Assembly: GCA_944389505.1 (NCBI GenBank)
Contig: CALXMP010000002.1
Span: 124,001-188,000 of the forward strand
DNA: 64,000 nucleotides
Direction of reading: 5' to 3'
From: an uncultured Spirochaetaceae bacterium
Lineage (GTDB): Bacteria; Spirochaetota; Spirochaetia; Sphaerochaetales; Sphaerochaetaceae
The translations under genes and the position numbers were made by a program. The notes beneath the pieces were generated by a model. The model was not told the origin of the DNA, searched no databases, and worked only from the letters and a program-made list of their open reading frames with translations. The stretch's first letter is position 1. Each line of letters opens with the position of its first letter. Positions 29,522 to 36,729 of the stretch are shown one piece after another.

Positions 29522-31246
29522 ATGAAAACAATAGGTTATTTTGATTCGTACAGCTTTCTCGATGCTTTCAGGGGAAAGGAATTCCAGGGAAAATGGCCGA
29601 ACGTCAGGGAGATGTTCCATATAACGGTTCTCCGCTACCCAGAGAATGCATGCTTCCACGCATTCTCGCCGGTGGAGGAGAGATTCACATACACCGAGGC
29701 AGAGAAGAAGATTGAGGCTGTTGCACGCTTCCTCGCCTCCAAGGGTGTCGGCAAGGGCGACAAGATCGCGGTATCTGGCAAGAACAGCCCCGAGTGGGCG
29801 ATTGCCTACTTCGGCATCATCTATGCTGGAGCGACCGTTGTCCCTCTCGATTATCTTCTCAAGGATAATGAGATGGAGACGCTCATCTCCTTCGGTGGCG
29901 TCACAAAGCTTTTCATCGATACCGAGCGTATCGATGCGATTGACAAAGACGGAAAGCTCGGACTGGAGAAGTTTGCCCTTGAGTCTGGTACTTCCTATCC
30001 ATTTGTCCTCGACATGGATGGACCAGAGTTCGTATATGAGAGAGCTGAGGGCAGCGATGTCGCTGCGATTCTCTTCACATCAGGAACTACAGGAACACCT
30101 AAGGGAGTCATGCTCACCCATGATAACCTTATCTCCGACTGCTATCTTGCCCAGTGCAATATGAATATCTACTCGACGGATGTATTCTATGCGATTCTTC
30201 CGATCCATCACGCATACACTATGCTCGCAGTTCTTTACGAGGCTACAAGCGTAGGTGCGGAGATCGTATTCGGAAAGAAGCTTGTCGTGACGCAGATCCT
30301 AAAGGAGCTGAAGCAGGGCAAGGTTACGATGTTCCTCGCTGTTCCTATGCTCTTCAATAAGATGATCGGCGCACTAATGTCAGGTGTAAGGAAGAAGGGC
30401 ATCGTTGTCTATGGCCTTATAAGGGCTCTGATGGGCTTCTCCGGCTTTGTGAAGAAGGTCTTCGGAGTGAATATCGGTAAGAAGATGTTCGGATTCCTTC
30501 TTTCAAAGCTCTCGCTGGAGTCGAATAGGATCTGTATCTGCGGAGGCGGCCCCCTTCCGGCTTCCACGTTCCGCATGTTCAATGAGCTCGGTATCGACTT
30601 CGTCCAGGGCTATGGTCTTACGGAGACATCTCCGATCACGCACCTCAATCCTGTAGAGGCATATAGGGAGACATCGGTCGGAAAGCTCTTCCCGGAGGAG
30701 GAGGTGAAGATTGTCGATCCTGACAGCGATGGCAATGGCCTCATATTCATCAAGGGACCAATGGTCATGAAGGGCTACTACAACAACGAAGAGGCCACGA
30801 AGGAGGTTCTTACTGAGGATGGATGGCTCAACACTGGAGACGTGGGACATCAGGATAAGGATGGCTATCTCTACCTCACAGGAAGGGCTAAGAACGTTAT
30901 CGTCACAGAGGGCGGAAAGAATGTCTTCCCCGAGGAGATTGAGGACCATTTCCAGCTCTATGATGATATCGATACGATATGCATCATCCCGTATGTCATC
31001 GATAAGGCGATGAAGAGCGAGGGCATCAGGGCTGTAATCTATCCTTCCGAGAACTATGCAAAGAGCGTTAACCGCGATAAGGCCGCAATCGAGAAGCATA
31101 TGAATGAGATCATCGAGGAGGTCAACCGCTCGCTCCAGAGCTACAAGAAGATCACGAAGGTCACCGTCACTGACAAGCCTCTGCCAATGACCAGTACGAA
31201 GAAGGTGAAGAGGTTCGAGGTCATAAAGGAGTTCAGGGAGAACTGA
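29522..31246 (+). CDS. AMP-dependent acyl-CoA synthetase (long-chain type), copy 1
   Basis: Activates a carboxylic acid to its CoA thioester through an acyl-adenylate. 574 residues. Motif A5 FTSGTTGTPKGVMLTHDNL (about 188-206), ILPIHHAYTM, GGGPLPASTFRMF, QGYGLTETSPITHLNP, WLNTGDVGHQDKDGYLYLTGRAKNVIVTEGGKNVFPEEIE and a C-terminal lysine TSTKKVKRFEV. The N-terminus IGYFDSYSFLDAFRGKEFQGKWPNV is shared only with its tandem copy. AGAGGA precedes ATG 29522. Substrate is unknown; medium or long fatty acids are likely. No beta-oxidation genes are nearby. Confidence 0.9.
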   Translation: MKTIGYFDSYSFLDAFRGKEFQGKWPNVREMFHITVLRYPENACFHAFSPVEERFTYTEAEKKIEAVARFLASKGVGKGDKIAVSGKNSPEWAIAYFGIIYAGATVVPLDYLLKDNEMETLISFGGVTKLFIDTERIDAIDKDGKLGLEKFALESGTSYPFVLDMDGPEFVYERAEGSDVAAILFTSGTTGTPKGVMLTHDNLISDCYLAQCNMNIYSTDVFYAILPIHHAYTMLAVLYEATSVGAEIVFGKKLVVTQILKELKQGKVTMFLAVPMLFNKMIGALMSGVRKKGIVVYGLIRALMGFSGFVKKVFGVNIGKKMFGFLLSKLSLESNRICICGGGPLPASTFRMFNELGIDFVQGYGLTETSPITHLNPVEAYRETSVGKLFPEEEVKIVDPDSDGNGLIFIKGPMVMKGYYNNEEATKEVLTEDGWLNTGDVGHQDKDGYLYLTGRAKNVIVTEGGKNVFPEEIEDHFQLYDDIDTICIIPYVIDKAMKSEGIRAVIYPSENYAKSVNRDKAAIEKHMNEIIEEVNRSLQSYKKITKVTVTDKPLPMTSTKKVKRFEVIKEFREN

Positions 31247-31315
31247 TTTCCTCTTTTCCTTCACCGGTGAAAAATGGTAGATTTTTCTCATTATTGATAA
31301 GGTGGTGTGCAGTTT

Positions 31316-33031
31316 ATGAAGAATGTCGGATACCGGAATGCCTGGGCATTCCTTGATGGATATAGAGGAAAGGAATTCCAGGGCAAGTGGCCAGGGGTTA
31401 ATGAGATGTTCCATATCTCTGTCCTGCGTTTCCCGGACCATCTGGCATTTCATTCATTTGAGCCTGAGACGAAGCTTACATTCGCTGAGGCAGAGAAGCG
31501 GATAATGGAGATTGCGGGATACCTTCAGAGCACGGGCTTCCAGGAGGGCGATAAAGCCGCTGTATCAGGCCGCAACAGCACAGAGTGGACGCTCTCTTAC
31601 TTCGCGATCATATATGCAGGCGGTATTGTCGTTCCTCTCGATTATTCCCTCAAGGACAGCGAGATGGAGCGCTTCATCTCCTTTGGAGGCGTCAAGAGGC
31701 TCTTCATCGATTCTGAAAGGGTTGATGGTATCGACAAGGACGGTAGTCTCGGGCTTATCAAGTATTCGATAGGACATGCTGATGGCTATCAGTCTGTTGA
31801 TACGATGAGGGGTGTGTATAAGCCGCTTGGATTCCGTAATGGCTCCGATGTTGCGGCAATCCTCTTCACATCAGGAACGACAGGTACACCGAAGGGAGTC
31901 ATGCTCACCCATGATAACCTTGTTTCCGACTGCTTCCTCACACAGTCAATCCTGGATATCAGAGATAATGATGTCATGTATGCGATTCTTCCGATCCATC
32001 ATGCATATGCGATGATGGCTGTCGTCTACATCTCGATAAGCTGCGGTGCTGCTGTTGTATTCGGCAGAAAGCTTGCCATGAGCCATATAATAAGGGAGCT
32101 CAAGGATGGCAATGTCACTGTATTCATGGCTGTTCCGATGCTCTATAACAAGATGATCGGCGCTCTCATGTCTGGGGTAAGGAAGAAGGGCACTGCAGTC
32201 TACGGCGTGGTAAGAGCGCTGATGGGCTTCTCAGGTTTCATGAAGAAGGTCTTCGGCATCAATGTGGGCAGAAGGATATTCCATTCCATGCTCGCAAAGC
32301 TCTCCCTCGACAACCTCAGGCTCTGCATATCAGGAGGTGGTCCGCTTCCGCCATCCACGTTCCGCATGTTCCAGGAGCTTGGCCTGGATTTCCTACAGGG
32401 CTACGGCCTGACAGAGGCATCTCCCGTTACACATCTCAATCCGTCGAAGGCATTCAGGGTTGAATCGGTTGGAAAGCTCTTCCCGGAGGAGGAGGTGAAG
32501 ATCGTCGATCCTGACAGCGATGGCAATGGTCTTATCTATATAAAGGGACCTATGGTCATGAAGGGCTACTATAACAACGAGGAGGCCACGAAGGAGGTTC
32601 TCACCGATGACGGATGGCTCAATACAGGAGACGTGGGACACCAGGACAAGGATGGCTATCTCTACCTCACAGGAAGGGCTAAGAACGTTATCGTCACAGA
32701 AGGTGGCAAGAATATCTTCCCCGAGGAGATAGAGGATCACTTCCAGCTCTTTTCCGAGATCGATCAGGTCTGCGTTGTGGGCTATATGGCCGATGAGGCA
32801 CTGAGGAAGGAGGGCATAAGGATACTTATCCGTCCGACAGATGAGTACAGAGAGAGCATGAAGAATGACGAGGCTGCGATTGCGCGCCATATGAATGATC
32901 TTGTCGAGCAGGTCAATAGGGATATCCAGCACTACAAGCGCATAACCAAGGTCACGATAGTCACGGACAAAATGCCTATGACAAGCACATCGAAGATAAA
33001 GCGCAGCGATGTCATGAAGCTTTACGGTTAA
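31316..33031 (+). CDS. AMP-dependent acyl-CoA synthetase, copy 2 (tandem paralogue)
   Basis: A 571-residue paralogue of the gene just upstream, collinear over its whole length: NVGYRNAWAFLDGYRGKEF at the start, FTSGTTGTPKGVMLTHDNL, GGGPLPPSTFRMF, QGYGLTEASPVTHLNP, and STSKIKRSDV with the C-terminal lysine. Copies differ mostly in residues 130-180 and in the last 90. The stretch 32471-32700 is nearly identical in DNA to 30680-30909 of copy 1. ATG 31316 aligns with the copy-1 start and follows AAGGTGG; a GTG at 31307 is less likely. yhbY follows 10 bases later. Confidence 0.9.
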   Translation: MKNVGYRNAWAFLDGYRGKEFQGKWPGVNEMFHISVLRFPDHLAFHSFEPETKLTFAEAEKRIMEIAGYLQSTGFQEGDKAAVSGRNSTEWTLSYFAIIYAGGIVVPLDYSLKDSEMERFISFGGVKRLFIDSERVDGIDKDGSLGLIKYSIGHADGYQSVDTMRGVYKPLGFRNGSDVAAILFTSGTTGTPKGVMLTHDNLVSDCFLTQSILDIRDNDVMYAILPIHHAYAMMAVVYISISCGAAVVFGRKLAMSHIIRELKDGNVTVFMAVPMLYNKMIGALMSGVRKKGTAVYGVVRALMGFSGFMKKVFGINVGRRIFHSMLAKLSLDNLRLCISGGGPLPPSTFRMFQELGLDFLQGYGLTEASPVTHLNPSKAFRVESVGKLFPEEEVKIVDPDSDGNGLIYIKGPMVMKGYYNNEEATKEVLTDDGWLNTGDVGHQDKDGYLYLTGRAKNVIVTEGGKNIFPEEIEDHFQLFSEIDQVCVVGYMADEALRKEGIRILIRPTDEYRESMKNDEAAIARHMNDLVEQVNRDIQHYKRITKVTIVTDKMPMTSTSKIKRSDVMKLYG

Positions 33032-33041
33032 GAGGGTACAG

Positions 33042-33335
33042 ATGAAACTTACAAGTCAGCAGAGGGCTTACCTGCGCTCAGAGGCGCAGAGCCTCGATCC
33101 GGTTGTGTATGTCGGCAAGGAAGGCCTTACCGATGGAGTCATAAAGGCTCTTGATGATGCGCTTACCGCGCATGAGCTCGTGAAAGTCCGCTTCCAGAAC
33201 GCAAAGGATGAGATAAAGGAGATATCGAGAGCGCTGGAGAAGTCGACAGCATCAACGCTTGTCGCGACTACAGGATTCACCACTGTCTTCTTCCGTCAGG
33301 ACAGTGAGAACAAGGAAAGAATATACCATATCTGA
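33042..33335 (+). CDS. yhbY: YhbY-like ribosome assembly RNA-binding protein
   Basis: CRS1/YhbY RNA-binding domain protein of 97 residues, which associates with pre-50S particles. It has LTSQQRAYLRSEAQSLDPVVYVGKEGLTDGVIKALDDAL with the conserved GxxG-like turn GKEGLT, then ELVKVRFQNA and TLVATTGFTTVFFRQ. AGAGGGT precedes the start. The left 91-bp repeat, with a hairpin, begins five bases after its stop and probably ends the transcript. Confidence 0.92.
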   Translation: MKLTSQQRAYLRSEAQSLDPVVYVGKEGLTDGVIKALDDALTAHELVKVRFQNAKDEIKEISRALEKSTASTLVATTGFTTVFFRQDSENKERIYHI

Positions 33336-33339
33336 GCTC

Positions 33340-33430
33340 AATTTGTTTGATAGGAAAGCCTGGGATCATCAAAATTCCAGGCTATTTCTTTATATTGCAA
33401 CAATAAATTTGTTTGATAGTTGTTTGACAG
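33340..33430. repeat. left copy of a 91-bp direct repeat flanking the AlbA_2 gene
   Basis: Aligns without gaps to 34919-35009 at an offset of 1579. Shared blocks include AATTTGTTTGAT at the start, AATTCCAG, CTATTTCTTTATATTGCAAC and AAATTTGTTTGAT near the end. It holds a hairpin terminator and copies of an 11-mer. Confidence 0.85.
33357..33391 (+). terminator. terminator hairpin in the left repeat, after yhbY
   Basis: AGCCTGG (33357-33363) pairs with CCAGGCT (33377-33383), extendable by two pairs, followed by ATTTCTTT. The right repeat carries an imperfect version of the same hairpin (34936-34962). Confidence 0.65.
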
Positions 33431-33441
33431 TTGTTTGATAG
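33409..33441. repeat. three phased 11-mers TTGTTTGAYAG over the promoter
   Basis: TTGTTTGATAG, TTGTTTGACAG and TTGTTTGATAG follow one another without gaps at 33409, 33420 and 33431; a fourth copy is at 33343. Eleven-base spacing places them on one face of the helix, like operator half-sites. The middle copy contains the -35 TTGACA. Confidence 0.75.
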
Positions 33442-33452
33442 GATGATACCAT
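33424..33452 (+). promoter_or_regulatory. promoter of the AlbA_2 gene, leaderless type
   Basis: TTGACA at 33424-33429, 17 bases, TACCAT at 33447-33452, six bases, then ATG 33459. There is no Shine-Dalgarno. The -35 and spacer lie inside the 11-mer array, so a bound protein would block transcription. Confidence 0.55.
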
Positions 33453-33458
33453 CAAAGC

Positions 33459-34919
33459 ATGCAGGATGGATATGACTATATAGCTTTGGTTGATTATCTA
33501 CGTAGCTACAGCCAGGAAGAGCCTTGGTTTGAGTTCAAGAAAGGCAACAGCAATCCAGAGCGGATTGGGGAATATGTCTCCGCATTAAGCAATGCAGCGG
33601 CTCTTTCCGGCCATCCATTTGGATATATTGTCTGGGGCATCGATGATCAGACCCATGATGTTGTTGGCACGGATTTCCATCCAAAGACTGCCAAGAAGGG
33701 CAATCTTGAGCTTCTGAACTGGCTCGCAATTGCGACAAGCCCTAGAATCAGACTCGATTTCATTGAGCTTCAGGGCTGGGATGGAAAGCATGTTGCCCTG
33801 CTTGAGATTCCTGCAGCTTCATCTGCGCCTGTTAGGTTCCAAGGAACAGAATATATCAGGGTTGGGTCAAATGTGCAGGAACTGTCCAGGTATCCTGAAT
33901 ACGAGAGGGAGCTGTGGCATAGTTTTGATCGAATGCCCCCTGAAATGAGGGTTGTGAAGAGCGGATTGCTCGGCACAGATATACAAGAGCTTCTTATCCT
34001 CGATGCCTACTTCATCCAGCAGAATCTACCTGTTCCTTCTTCCCTTGAAGGAAAGCTTGAGCGTTTCAGCGATGAGAGATTCATTGCCATCTCTGATAAT
34101 GGTACATACTCAGTAACGGCGTTGGGAGCTCTTCTCTTTGCCAGGAACCTAAGGGAATTCCCTATGGTTGCATCAAAAGCAATCAGGGTGATTCTCTATA
34201 GAAATGGAAGCAGGATTGAAGCTGTGAATGATATCACGGCATATGAGGGATATGCTGTCTCATTCAGCCCTGTATGCAACCGTATCTATGATATGGTCAG
34301 AGAGCCTGAGATAATACGCAGCGAGCGCAGGGAAGAACCTATGAGATTCCCCGCTGTTGCAATCAGGGAGCTTCTTGGCAATCTCCTTATACATCAGGAT
34401 CTGTCGGTTTCCGGTTCCGGTCCGATTGTGGAGGTCTTTGCATCCCGTATTGAGGGATCGAATCCTGGTTCCCTCCTTGTTCCGAAGGACAGGATTATCG
34501 ATGCACCCCCAAGAGTAAGGAACGAGGCTCTTGCTGCATTTCTGCGCCGTATACATATCTGCGAAGAAAGGGGCAGCGGGTTTGACAGGATGGAGGAGGG
34601 GATGGCAAGTATGTTTCTTCCTTCCCCTCTTGTGGATACTGGTCCGGATTATACAAGGATCAAGCTCTTCAGCTATCCAGATTTCTCATCCTGGACAAAG
34701 GATGATCGCATCCGGACATGCTATATGGCAACATGCCTTCGGTATATAGAGTCGATTCCTGTTTCAAACGCGATGCTGCGTGATCGTTTCGGGATACCTG
34801 AGAAGAACAGCGCAGTTGTATCAAGGATTGTCAAGGAGGCAATCGCCGAGAACCGAATCCGAATCCTTGATGAGTCAGCTGGGGCTAAAGCAAGGCGGTA
34901 TATCCCATATTGGGCCTGA
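33459..34919 (+). CDS. AlbA_2/HATPase_c_4 regulator-like protein (COG2865)
   Basis: A 486-residue protein of the AlbA_2 (Schlafen AlbA, divergent AAA_4) plus HATPase_c_4 architecture, annotated elsewhere as putative transcription regulator or RecG-related. AlbA_2: EEPWFEFKKGNSNPERIGEYVSALSNAAAL, FGYIVWGIDD, EIPAASSAPVRFQGTEYIRVGS. ATPase-like part: RELLGNLLIHQDLSVSGSG, EVFASRIEGSNPGSLL, RNEALAAFLRRI, CEERGSGFDRM. A winged-helix end is likely (about 420-480). It is flanked by 91-bp direct repeats, has its own promoter and no SD, and uses more AT-rich codons than neighbours. An acquired, self-regulated gene is inferred; its role, possibly host defence or stress, is unknown. Confidence 0.85.
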   Translation: MQDGYDYIALVDYLRSYSQEEPWFEFKKGNSNPERIGEYVSALSNAAALSGHPFGYIVWGIDDQTHDVVGTDFHPKTAKKGNLELLNWLAIATSPRIRLDFIELQGWDGKHVALLEIPAASSAPVRFQGTEYIRVGSNVQELSRYPEYERELWHSFDRMPPEMRVVKSGLLGTDIQELLILDAYFIQQNLPVPSSLEGKLERFSDERFIAISDNGTYSVTALGALLFARNLREFPMVASKAIRVILYRNGSRIEAVNDITAYEGYAVSFSPVCNRIYDMVREPEIIRSERREEPMRFPAVAIRELLGNLLIHQDLSVSGSGPIVEVFASRIEGSNPGSLLVPKDRIIDAPPRVRNEALAAFLRRIHICEERGSGFDRMEEGMASMFLPSPLVDTGPDYTRIKLFSYPDFSSWTKDDRIRTCYMATCLRYIESIPVSNAMLRDRFGIPEKNSAVVSRIVKEAIAENRIRILDESAGAKARRYIPYWA

Positions 34920-35009
34920 ATTTGTTTGATGAAATAGCCTGAAATTATTGAAATTCCAGACTATTTCTTTATATTGCAACAACAAATTTGTTTGATGGTT
35001 GTTTGATTG
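34919..35009. repeat. right copy of the 91-bp direct repeat
   Basis: Begins on the last base of the AlbA_2 stop codon. Contains three 11-mer relatives (at 34922, 34988 and 34999) and a degraded version of the terminator hairpin that may end the AlbA_2 transcript. No plus-strand gene follows; pfp lies convergent. Confidence 0.85.
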
Positions 35010-35061: not shown

Positions 35062-36729
35062 TTATTTTCTTGCTTCCTTTTCAAGGGCAAGTGTGATTGT
35101 CGTCGCATCACAGAGCTCTGACGGTCCATAGTACTGGATAGCACCAGGGTATCTGAAGCATGTATCAGCTGCCCATTCTTCCCTGTGCTCTGCAAAGTAC
35201 TGGAATGGCTTTCCATCGAGCTCTACAAGAGCCTTCTTGATAACAGGCTTGTCCTGACCGCCACGGCGTTCCATGTTCATCATCTTCGTAATAGGCATAC
35301 CGCCAGCCTGCCATGCATCTACACCCTGGTCGAGGGCGCGGATTGTTGACATATAGCCTGTGTATCCGTTCTGGATAAGGAGGAATGCAGTATAGCCGAG
35401 GCTGTAGCAGTAATCAGCATCGAAGTTCGATGGGAATGCTGCTCTTCCCTCATAGCCGAAGAAGTGCGTCATCGAGCTGAACTTGCCGGTATACTTGCCC
35501 TCTGCCTTGAGAGCCTTGAGCTTTGTCTCTGTAAGCGTTGCAAGGAGCTTCTCTGTCTCAATCCTAGATACCTGCACATTGCCATGCGGATCGCGGTCCA
35601 TCAGAAGCTGCTGCTGGATATCCACAGGAAGGATGGAGAATACATTCATCGACTCCTCTGAGAGCTCAGCGGAGAGGAAGCCTGTCTTCTCTTCCCATGA
35701 CTCAAGCTCTGCGAACTGCTCACCCTTTGCTGCGAGTGTATCATTGAGCTCTGCGATGAGCTTCTTCATCTCAGGGATGAACTCGATAAGTCCCTCTGGA
35801 ACGACAACGATACCGAAGTTCATTCCCATAGCGGCCCTGTGCACAACGCTGTCGACGATGCTGTCAGCTACCGATTCGAGGCTCGTTCCGTTCTTCTCGA
35901 CCTCTTCGGAGATAAGACAGACGTTCGGATGTGTCTGGAGTGCGCACTCAAGAGCGATGTGGGAAGCGGAGCGTCCCATAAGCTTGATGAAATGCCAGTA
36001 CTTCTTTGCGGAGTTAGCATCCCTCATGATATTCCCGATAAGCTCGGAGTAGGTCTTTGTCGCTGTATCGAAACCGAATGATGCCTCGATCTCATCGTTC
36101 TTCAGGTCTCCATCGATTGTCTTCGGGCATCCTATCACCTGCACAGGTACATCATGGTCTGCAAAGTACTCTGCGAGCACCGCGGCATTGGTATTGGAGT
36201 CATCGCCTCCGATTATGACGATAGCTGTCATGCCATGCTTCTCAGCAACTGCTGCAACCTTCTTGAACTGCTCCTCTGTCTCGAGCTTCGTCCTTCCGGA
36301 TCCGATCATATCGAATCCGCCGGTATTCCTGTACTGGTCGATGATGTCGCCGGTAAGCGTGATGTAGTTGTCATCGGTAAGACCTGATGGACCGCCCTTG
36401 AATCCGAGGAGGACGTTGTCCTTTCCTGCTTCATGGATCGCATCGTACAGACCTGCGATTACATTATGTCCGCCAGGGGCCTGTCCACCGGAGAGGATAA
36501 CGCCGACAACCTGCTTCTTGCCAGATGCCGTGCTCTTTCCTTCCTTGAATGAGACCTCTTTCATCCCATATGTCTTAGGGAAGAGCTCCTTGATCCTGCT
36601 GTCAGCAGATCCGGTTGAGGCATTGCCTTCCACTGCCTGTATGTTTCCGATTCCAGCGCGGAGCATTGCAGGCACTTTCGGCTGGTATGTATAACGCGTA
36701 CTCTGAAGTATTGATATGTTATTGTCCAT
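35062..36729 (-). CDS. pfp: diphosphate-fructose-6-phosphate 1-phosphotransferase
   Basis: PPi-dependent phosphofructokinase, long type, 555 residues; reversible step of glycolysis using pyrophosphate. [18 protein letters not shown] near residue 76, [17 protein letters not shown] with the GGDD that selects PPi, [23 protein letters not shown] (usual TIDNDL reads TIDGDL), and [20 protein letters not shown] strong AAAGGAGG precedes the start and a terminator follows. Many spirochaetes use this enzyme in place of ATP-PFK. Confidence 0.95.

Follow-up and report, generated by a model that had tools for sequence, protein, structure and literature searches.

The repeats of the yhbY-pfp locus

In an uncultured Spirochaetaceae bacterium, one gene lies between yhbY and pfp with a direct repeat on either side, and the question is what these repeats are and to which of the three genes they belong. 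We analysed a stretch of 64,000 nucleotides of contig CALXMP010000002.1 (hereafter the window), in which an earlier note had described ungapped repeats around one complete gene. This arrangement was confirmed: two ungapped direct copies of 107 nt (33321-33427 and 34900-35006; 83% identity, offset 1579) enclose a single complete ORF of 486 aa (Table 1), with yhbY (33042-33335) on one side and pfp (35062-36729, minus strand) on the other. The repeat starts first given, 33340 and 34919, mark the core correctly, but the full copies begin further upstream. The right copy overlaps the stop codon of the gene (TGA, 34917-34919), as had been noted. Both copies carry TTGTTTGAY iterons at 11-bp steps, and the repeats are two copies of a bipartite unit built from iterons as DR1-spacer-DR2, with a DR1-DR2 distance of 66 bp in each. 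A hairpin also folds in the two copies.

The genome-wide repeat search that had been proposed as a way to find further cassettes yielded none, as a whole-genome DNA search with the window repeat returned these two copies only. When the pattern TTTGTTTGAYNGTTGTTTGAY was compared with 48 genomes, the reversed control gave zero matches, which excludes chance, and the matches lay at the gene with four exceptions: one relic with a gene remnant, one contig edge and two solo units. Upstream of yhbY, two adjacent and similar 574-aa genes of the AMP-binding (acyl-CoA synthetase) type occupy 29522-33031 of the window, an apparent tandem duplication.

Table 1. Features of the element in the window.
Feature	Position	Strand	Basis or remark
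Left unit (LR), DR1-spacer-DR2, upstream copy	33338..33440	+	83% identical to right copy
LR DR1, single iteron ATTTGTTTGAT	33340..33351	+	sequence; aligned across all spirochaete units
LR spacer hairpin, terminator-like	33357..33383	+	fold z -4.1; lineage-specific
LR DR2, three TTGTTTGAY iterons, 11-bp steps	33406..33439	+	66 bp from LR DR1
Schlafen-GHKL-wHTH protein, 486 aa	33459..34919	+	stop codon common to right unit
SLFN_AlbA_2 domain, residues 20-142, putative tRNase, triad E20/E25/D63	33516..33884	+	Pfam 9.6e-16; SAMD9 tRNase 9o0d Z 9.4
HATPase_c_4 / GHKL domain, residues 319-402	34413..34664	+	Pfam 2.3e-15; histidine-kinase CA folds Z ~8.8
C-terminal winged helix, residues ~411-486, proposed iteron-binding	34689..34916	+	Z 8.8 to Zalpha/MarR-type wHTH; tracks DR sequence
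Right unit (RR), DR1-spacer-DR2, from stop codon	34917..35012	+	copy widespread in family
RR DR1, overlaps TGA stop	34917..34930	+	sequence
RR DR2, two iterons	34984..35007	+	66 bp from RR DR1

Full, solo and empty sites

Comparison of the yhbY-pfp interval in related genomes had been expected to reveal gene-less relatives with a single repeat copy. Gene-less relatives were indeed found, but in eight other species of the genus (G001, G008, G021, G022, G031, G034, G040 and G041) yhbY and pfp are convergent, 80-130 bp apart, and hold zero repeats instead of one. The predicted state was seen in G010 (pfp C-terminus 91% identical), in which exactly one unit is present with the same pfp-side junction and the gene is absent. 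The gene adjoins pfp in G000, G014 and G007. In G007 and G010 the gene immediately after yhbY is a large, repetitive one of lipoprotein-like type (L136/L046 and L130), so the interval also varies independently of the element.

Two further sites were informative. One, flanked by a glycoside-hydrolase-like gene and an IclR-like regulator, has the full element in G021, a solo unit in G008, where the neighbours are 93-96% identical, and nothing in G038 and G041; at the third site, a full element in G042 and a solo unit in G035 have the left neighbour in common. A relic in G016, consisting of the left unit and a C-terminal remnant, lies at a site where G017 is full. Close homologs in the genus (59-99%) occupy several distinct sites, nearly all with a repeat on both sides. 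The empty, solo and occupied sites together bear out the view that the gene and its repeats were inserted together, and the locus is a one-gene accessory element whose repeats belong to the gene, not to yhbY. Where both are known, the left and right units of the same spirochaete element are 75-96% identical and nearly always closer to each other than to units of different elements, which indicates that the two arise, or stay uniform, together; at the same pfp site, unit sequences of G000/G014 and G007 differ strongly (60-64%). The simpler account of the solo units is that they derive from full elements by unit-unit recombination, rather than being insertion targets. For a test of target-site duplication, the empty sites were too diverged to place the insertion junction to the base.

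The protein is a bacterial Schlafen

Pfam assigned SLFN_AlbA_2 and HATPase_c_4 to the protein, both above the gathering score. An AlphaFold2 model of the 486-aa protein (pLDDT 84.7) matched 3LMM over most of its length (Z 21.7); the N-terminal part matched SLFN11/13/14 and the SAMD9 tRNase domain (Z 9.4), the middle histidine-kinase CA domains, and the end Zalpha/MarR-type winged helices (Z 8.8), identities that hold among the listed families that the fold comparison covered. Among solved structures 3LMM, which is DIP2311 of Corynebacterium diphtheriae, comes closest over most of the length and is itself uncharacterised. The triad E20/E25/D63 has the spacing (5/38) of E205/E210/D248 in SLFN13 (PMC5862951), and in the rows of the 80 homologs described below E20 is conserved in 79, E25 in 78 and D63 in 67 (N in 11). 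The protein is a bacterial Schlafen composed of an AlbA_2 tRNase-like domain, a GHKL ATPase and a C-terminal winged helix, for which we infer tRNase activity and an anti-phage role. It shares the AlbA_2 fold and carboxylate triad spacing with mammalian SLFN11/13/14 and the SAMD9 tRNase domain, whereas these are without the GHKL-wHTH tail and without a DNA target unit.

NCBIfam assigned no family to the protein, and PADLOC gave weak partial matches only, to argonaute-associated models. RptR (PMC12255303), which looked relevant because of its direct repeats, was rejected as a different 79-aa repressor. According to an excerpt of PMC12839542, which cites a preprint on anti-phage Schlafens (Taboada et al. 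2025), Schlafen RNases with a minimal histidine kinase and a wHTH act as backup RNase effectors and occur at BREX-type loci of at least 1017 taxa. Those proteins have an identical three-domain architecture and, in part, a defence context, but the excerpt mentions no cis-linked 3' iteron unit. TrlG of Photorhabdus also combines AlbA_2 with HATPase_c_4, but it belongs to a trlR-trlF-trlG operon; growth arrest at 36 C is relieved when its function is lost (PMC7554251), so intact TrlG can stop growth.

Two neighbourhoods in related species drew attention. In a sister species (G014:C92, L004/L028), the same yhbY-pfp element is deleted from its last LR iteron up to codon 86. The start and the whole triad are gone, so that a decapitated Schlafen gene remains together with two intact units. 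In G033:C104 (L033/L025), the element adjoins a second AlbA_2 paralog, 29% identical, so that two Schlafen-type genes stand side by side.

A 3' unit shared across phyla

One scan of named genomes yielded 80 homologs, from spirochaetes, Lachnospiraceae and other Firmicutes, gamma-, delta- and other proteobacteria, actinobacteria, cyanobacteria, planctomycetes and Myxococcota. With a threshold of at least 16 of 20 identical positions between DR1 and DR2, and DR1 no more than 30 nt from the stop, a DR1/DR2 pair was detected at the stop codon of 60 of the 80 homologs versus 3 of 203 control genes taken from these loci; 20 loci failed the threshold, and in some of these the DR is visible but shorter. 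DR1 and DR2 consist of iterons with a period of 10 or 11 bp, and the iterons are lineage-specific (TTTAGTTGATGGGTAGTTGAT, TTTATTTGATGGGTATTTGAT, TTAAGTTTCGCTAAGTTTC and TTTCGTTCACGGTCGTTCAC). Even homologs of 28% identity (L017, L022 and L026) bear iterons of their own, ACGCATGAAAA and TCAGGTGA, recognized by eye; the L026 spacer retains the core TAATTCATTATATTGCAAC found in spirochaete units. In L183 (4437-4620) and L223, three DR clusters with similar spacers stand in a row (DR-spacer-DR-spacer-DR), which indicates that the unit can be tandemly duplicated.

The hairpin that the earlier note had placed in each copy is present in both window copies (z -4.1 left, -4.9 right), but it is not general: it was significant in 14 of 60 spacers of other homologs and, by eye, was not evident in most sister-species units. 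The hairpin was accordingly rejected as the general core of the unit. An upstream copy was found outside the spirochaete clade in L182 only, most homologs being without one. The L182 copy starts exactly at the stop-codon base; the idea that a second gene copy had been lost and had left this tail behind was rejected, as there was no coding remnant. In homologs with a single unit, 11 upstream iterons were found versus 8.1 expected, and this lack of excess leaves classical autorepression unsupported there. In the spirochaetes, LR does sit upstream of the gene, where an operator at its own promoter would be sought. Across 60 units, promoter signal averaged z 0.0 and -0.1 on the two strands. The protein class is already known. 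Our literature search, which did not include the 2025 bacterial-Schlafen preprint, returned no earlier description of the 3' iteron unit arrangement, its spread, its wHTH linkage or its phasing, and priority is uncertain to that extent.

DR1 and DR2 lie at helically phased distances

The DR1-DR2 distances cluster around 66, 76, 88, 98, 109, 118, 127, 139 and 150 bp, with a best period of 10.4 bp (R 0.74, n=59 loci). When each 70% protein cluster was represented by one value (n=16), R was 0.80 at 10.5 bp (p ~3e-5), a value that 5000 jittered sets never reached. Fourteen held-out loci, from viral contigs, a plasmid, a phage, E. coli and other spirochaetes, gave R 0.77 and a matching phase (0.39 versus 0.40 turn). 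The iteron period itself, 11.0 bp, fits the DR spacing less well (R 0.65), and a one-iteron ambiguity in DR placement, possible at single loci, would favour 10 or 11 bp over 10.4. A fixed helical offset of this kind would be a requirement of a single nucleoprotein complex spanning both clusters. LacI, AraC and GalR act through looped repressor operators, which likewise comprise two operator clusters at a helically phased distance; the Schlafen unit differs from them in lying 3' of the gene and in its offset of about 0.4 turn rather than whole turns.

The iterons track the C-terminal domain

DR similarity was correlated with similarity of the C-terminal 68 aa when the rest of the protein was controlled (partial r 0.43), but not with the rest of the protein when the C-terminus was controlled (partial r 0.02); the permutation count was 0 of 2000. 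A clear case is that of L168/L170 and L180, which are 96/95% identical over the first 400 residues and 66% identical in the tail, and whose iterons are unrelated (TTTCGTTGATGGGTAG versus TTTTATTTGCACTCATTTG). By these sequence comparisons, iteron sequence tracks the C-terminal wHTH and not the remaining protein. The tail codons adjoin the DR, so the correlation could stem from linked exchange alone; it is consistent with, and not proof of, binding of the iterons by the tail.

Genomic company of the homologs

Conjugative plasmids, satellite phages and a Burkholderia phage carry homologs. In E. coli the homolog (L232 8703-14344; 4 of 5426 genomes) belongs to an island adjoining tRNA-Sec, where its neighbours are an IS5 and a retron St85-type effector. 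Neighbouring genes were mostly unrelated, about 1 in 12 being of the restriction-helicase type; none dominates the neighbourhood, and a fixed partner gene was rejected. No transposase, recombinase or integron integrase recurred among the neighbours. The full, solo and empty states and the 3' site at the stop codon resemble LTR elements and integron cassettes (attC), but the unit has direct iterons rather than attC inverted-repeat pairs, the sole ORF between the terminal repeats encodes the Schlafen protein and no reverse transcriptase, and the target lacks the site. In the earlier suggestion of a mobile defence cassette, defence fits the Schlafen tRNase domain and the excerpt of PMC12839542; since no recombinase or transposase is linked to the element, however, 'mobile cassette' describes its distribution only, and self-driven movement would be a further assumption.

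Discussion

An explanation of the element has to account for the anatomy of the unit, its place and spread, its linkage with the wHTH, the helical phasing, the full, solo and empty sites and the conserved triad. We consider it probable, though well short of certain, that the Schlafen tail binds the iterons linked to it in cis and joins DR1 to DR2 in a bridging complex of fixed geometry that controls or tethers an anti-phage tRNase. In this model, the C-terminal winged helix would bind the 10-11 bp iterons of both clusters, and protomers on DR1 and DR2, set at a constant helical angle, would join into one bridged or looped complex. Such a complex could retain the protein at its own gene, limit its amount, or keep the RNase inactive; upon infection, or once the site is lost, the protein would be released or activated and would cleave tRNA. 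In the spirochaete lineage, the second, upstream unit probably serves as an operator for the gene, and recombination between the two units would produce the solo repeats of relatives.

One could instead envisage that the unit is a recombination or transposition site, and that the gene and unit move as a cassette, by way of an unlinked recombinase or the protein itself, entering at unit copies or creating them. The LR-gene-RR order with its full, solo and empty states would follow, as would near-identical genes (91-96%) in different contexts whose homology is limited to a stretch that opens near the start codon and closes near the end of DR2, and the exact start of the L182 upstream copy. Helically phased iteron arms occur in recombination sites too. 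We nevertheless think this explanation unlikely: most homologs lack the upstream copy, the tRNase/GHKL/wHTH fold is no known recombinase and none is linked, plain homologous recombination between 100-bp repeats explains the solos, and neither a target duplication nor a consistent sequence at the target was established.

Distinctly unlikely, in our judgement, is an ordinary transcriptional autoregulator, in which the unit would be a promoter-operator (a DR1-promoter-DR2 loop) for the gene, through LR, or for a downstream partner, through RR, and AlbA_2 would be inactive as a nuclease. The old annotation as an HTH regulator, the TAATTCNTTNTATTNNA core common to spirochaete spacers and the few loci with the unit before an hsdR-like gene (L220) would agree with it; yet promoters are not enriched in the 60 units on either strand, several spacers contain terminator-like hairpins, the genes that follow the unit are unrelated to one another and in many cases convergent, and the tRNase triad is retained. 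Scarcely credible is a lineage-specific intergenic family or a duplicated yhbY terminator independent of the gene; a link of the repeat to the yhbY terminator was part of the earlier note's simplest reading. The hairpin in both copies would suit this explanation, but it is refuted by the zero copies at truly empty sites, and the repeat accompanies the gene wherever it is placed, with two copies only in the genome and, bar the four exceptions, pattern matches at the gene.

Returning to the bridged, iteron-bound Schlafen, a DNA-binding domain encoded side by side with its site would be exchanged together with that site by recombination, and the 3' position may owe its existence to this linkage of specificity domain and site. 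As far as our search went, it turned up no account of how bacterial Schlafens, which are related to antiviral RNases of humans, are silenced. A cis-element at the stop codon that is present across phyla, co-varies with the DNA-binding domain and is fixed in phase suggests that the enzyme has a specific state in which it is bound to DNA. We offer as a rule that the target of each family member should be predictable from the 150 bp after its stop codon. More tentatively, and with the balance somewhat against it, widespread anti-phage Schlafen RNases might be restrained or armed by a DNA tether at their own stop codon, the phased iteron clusters acting as a built-in DNA 'antitoxin' or sensor that is co-exchanged with the specificity domain.
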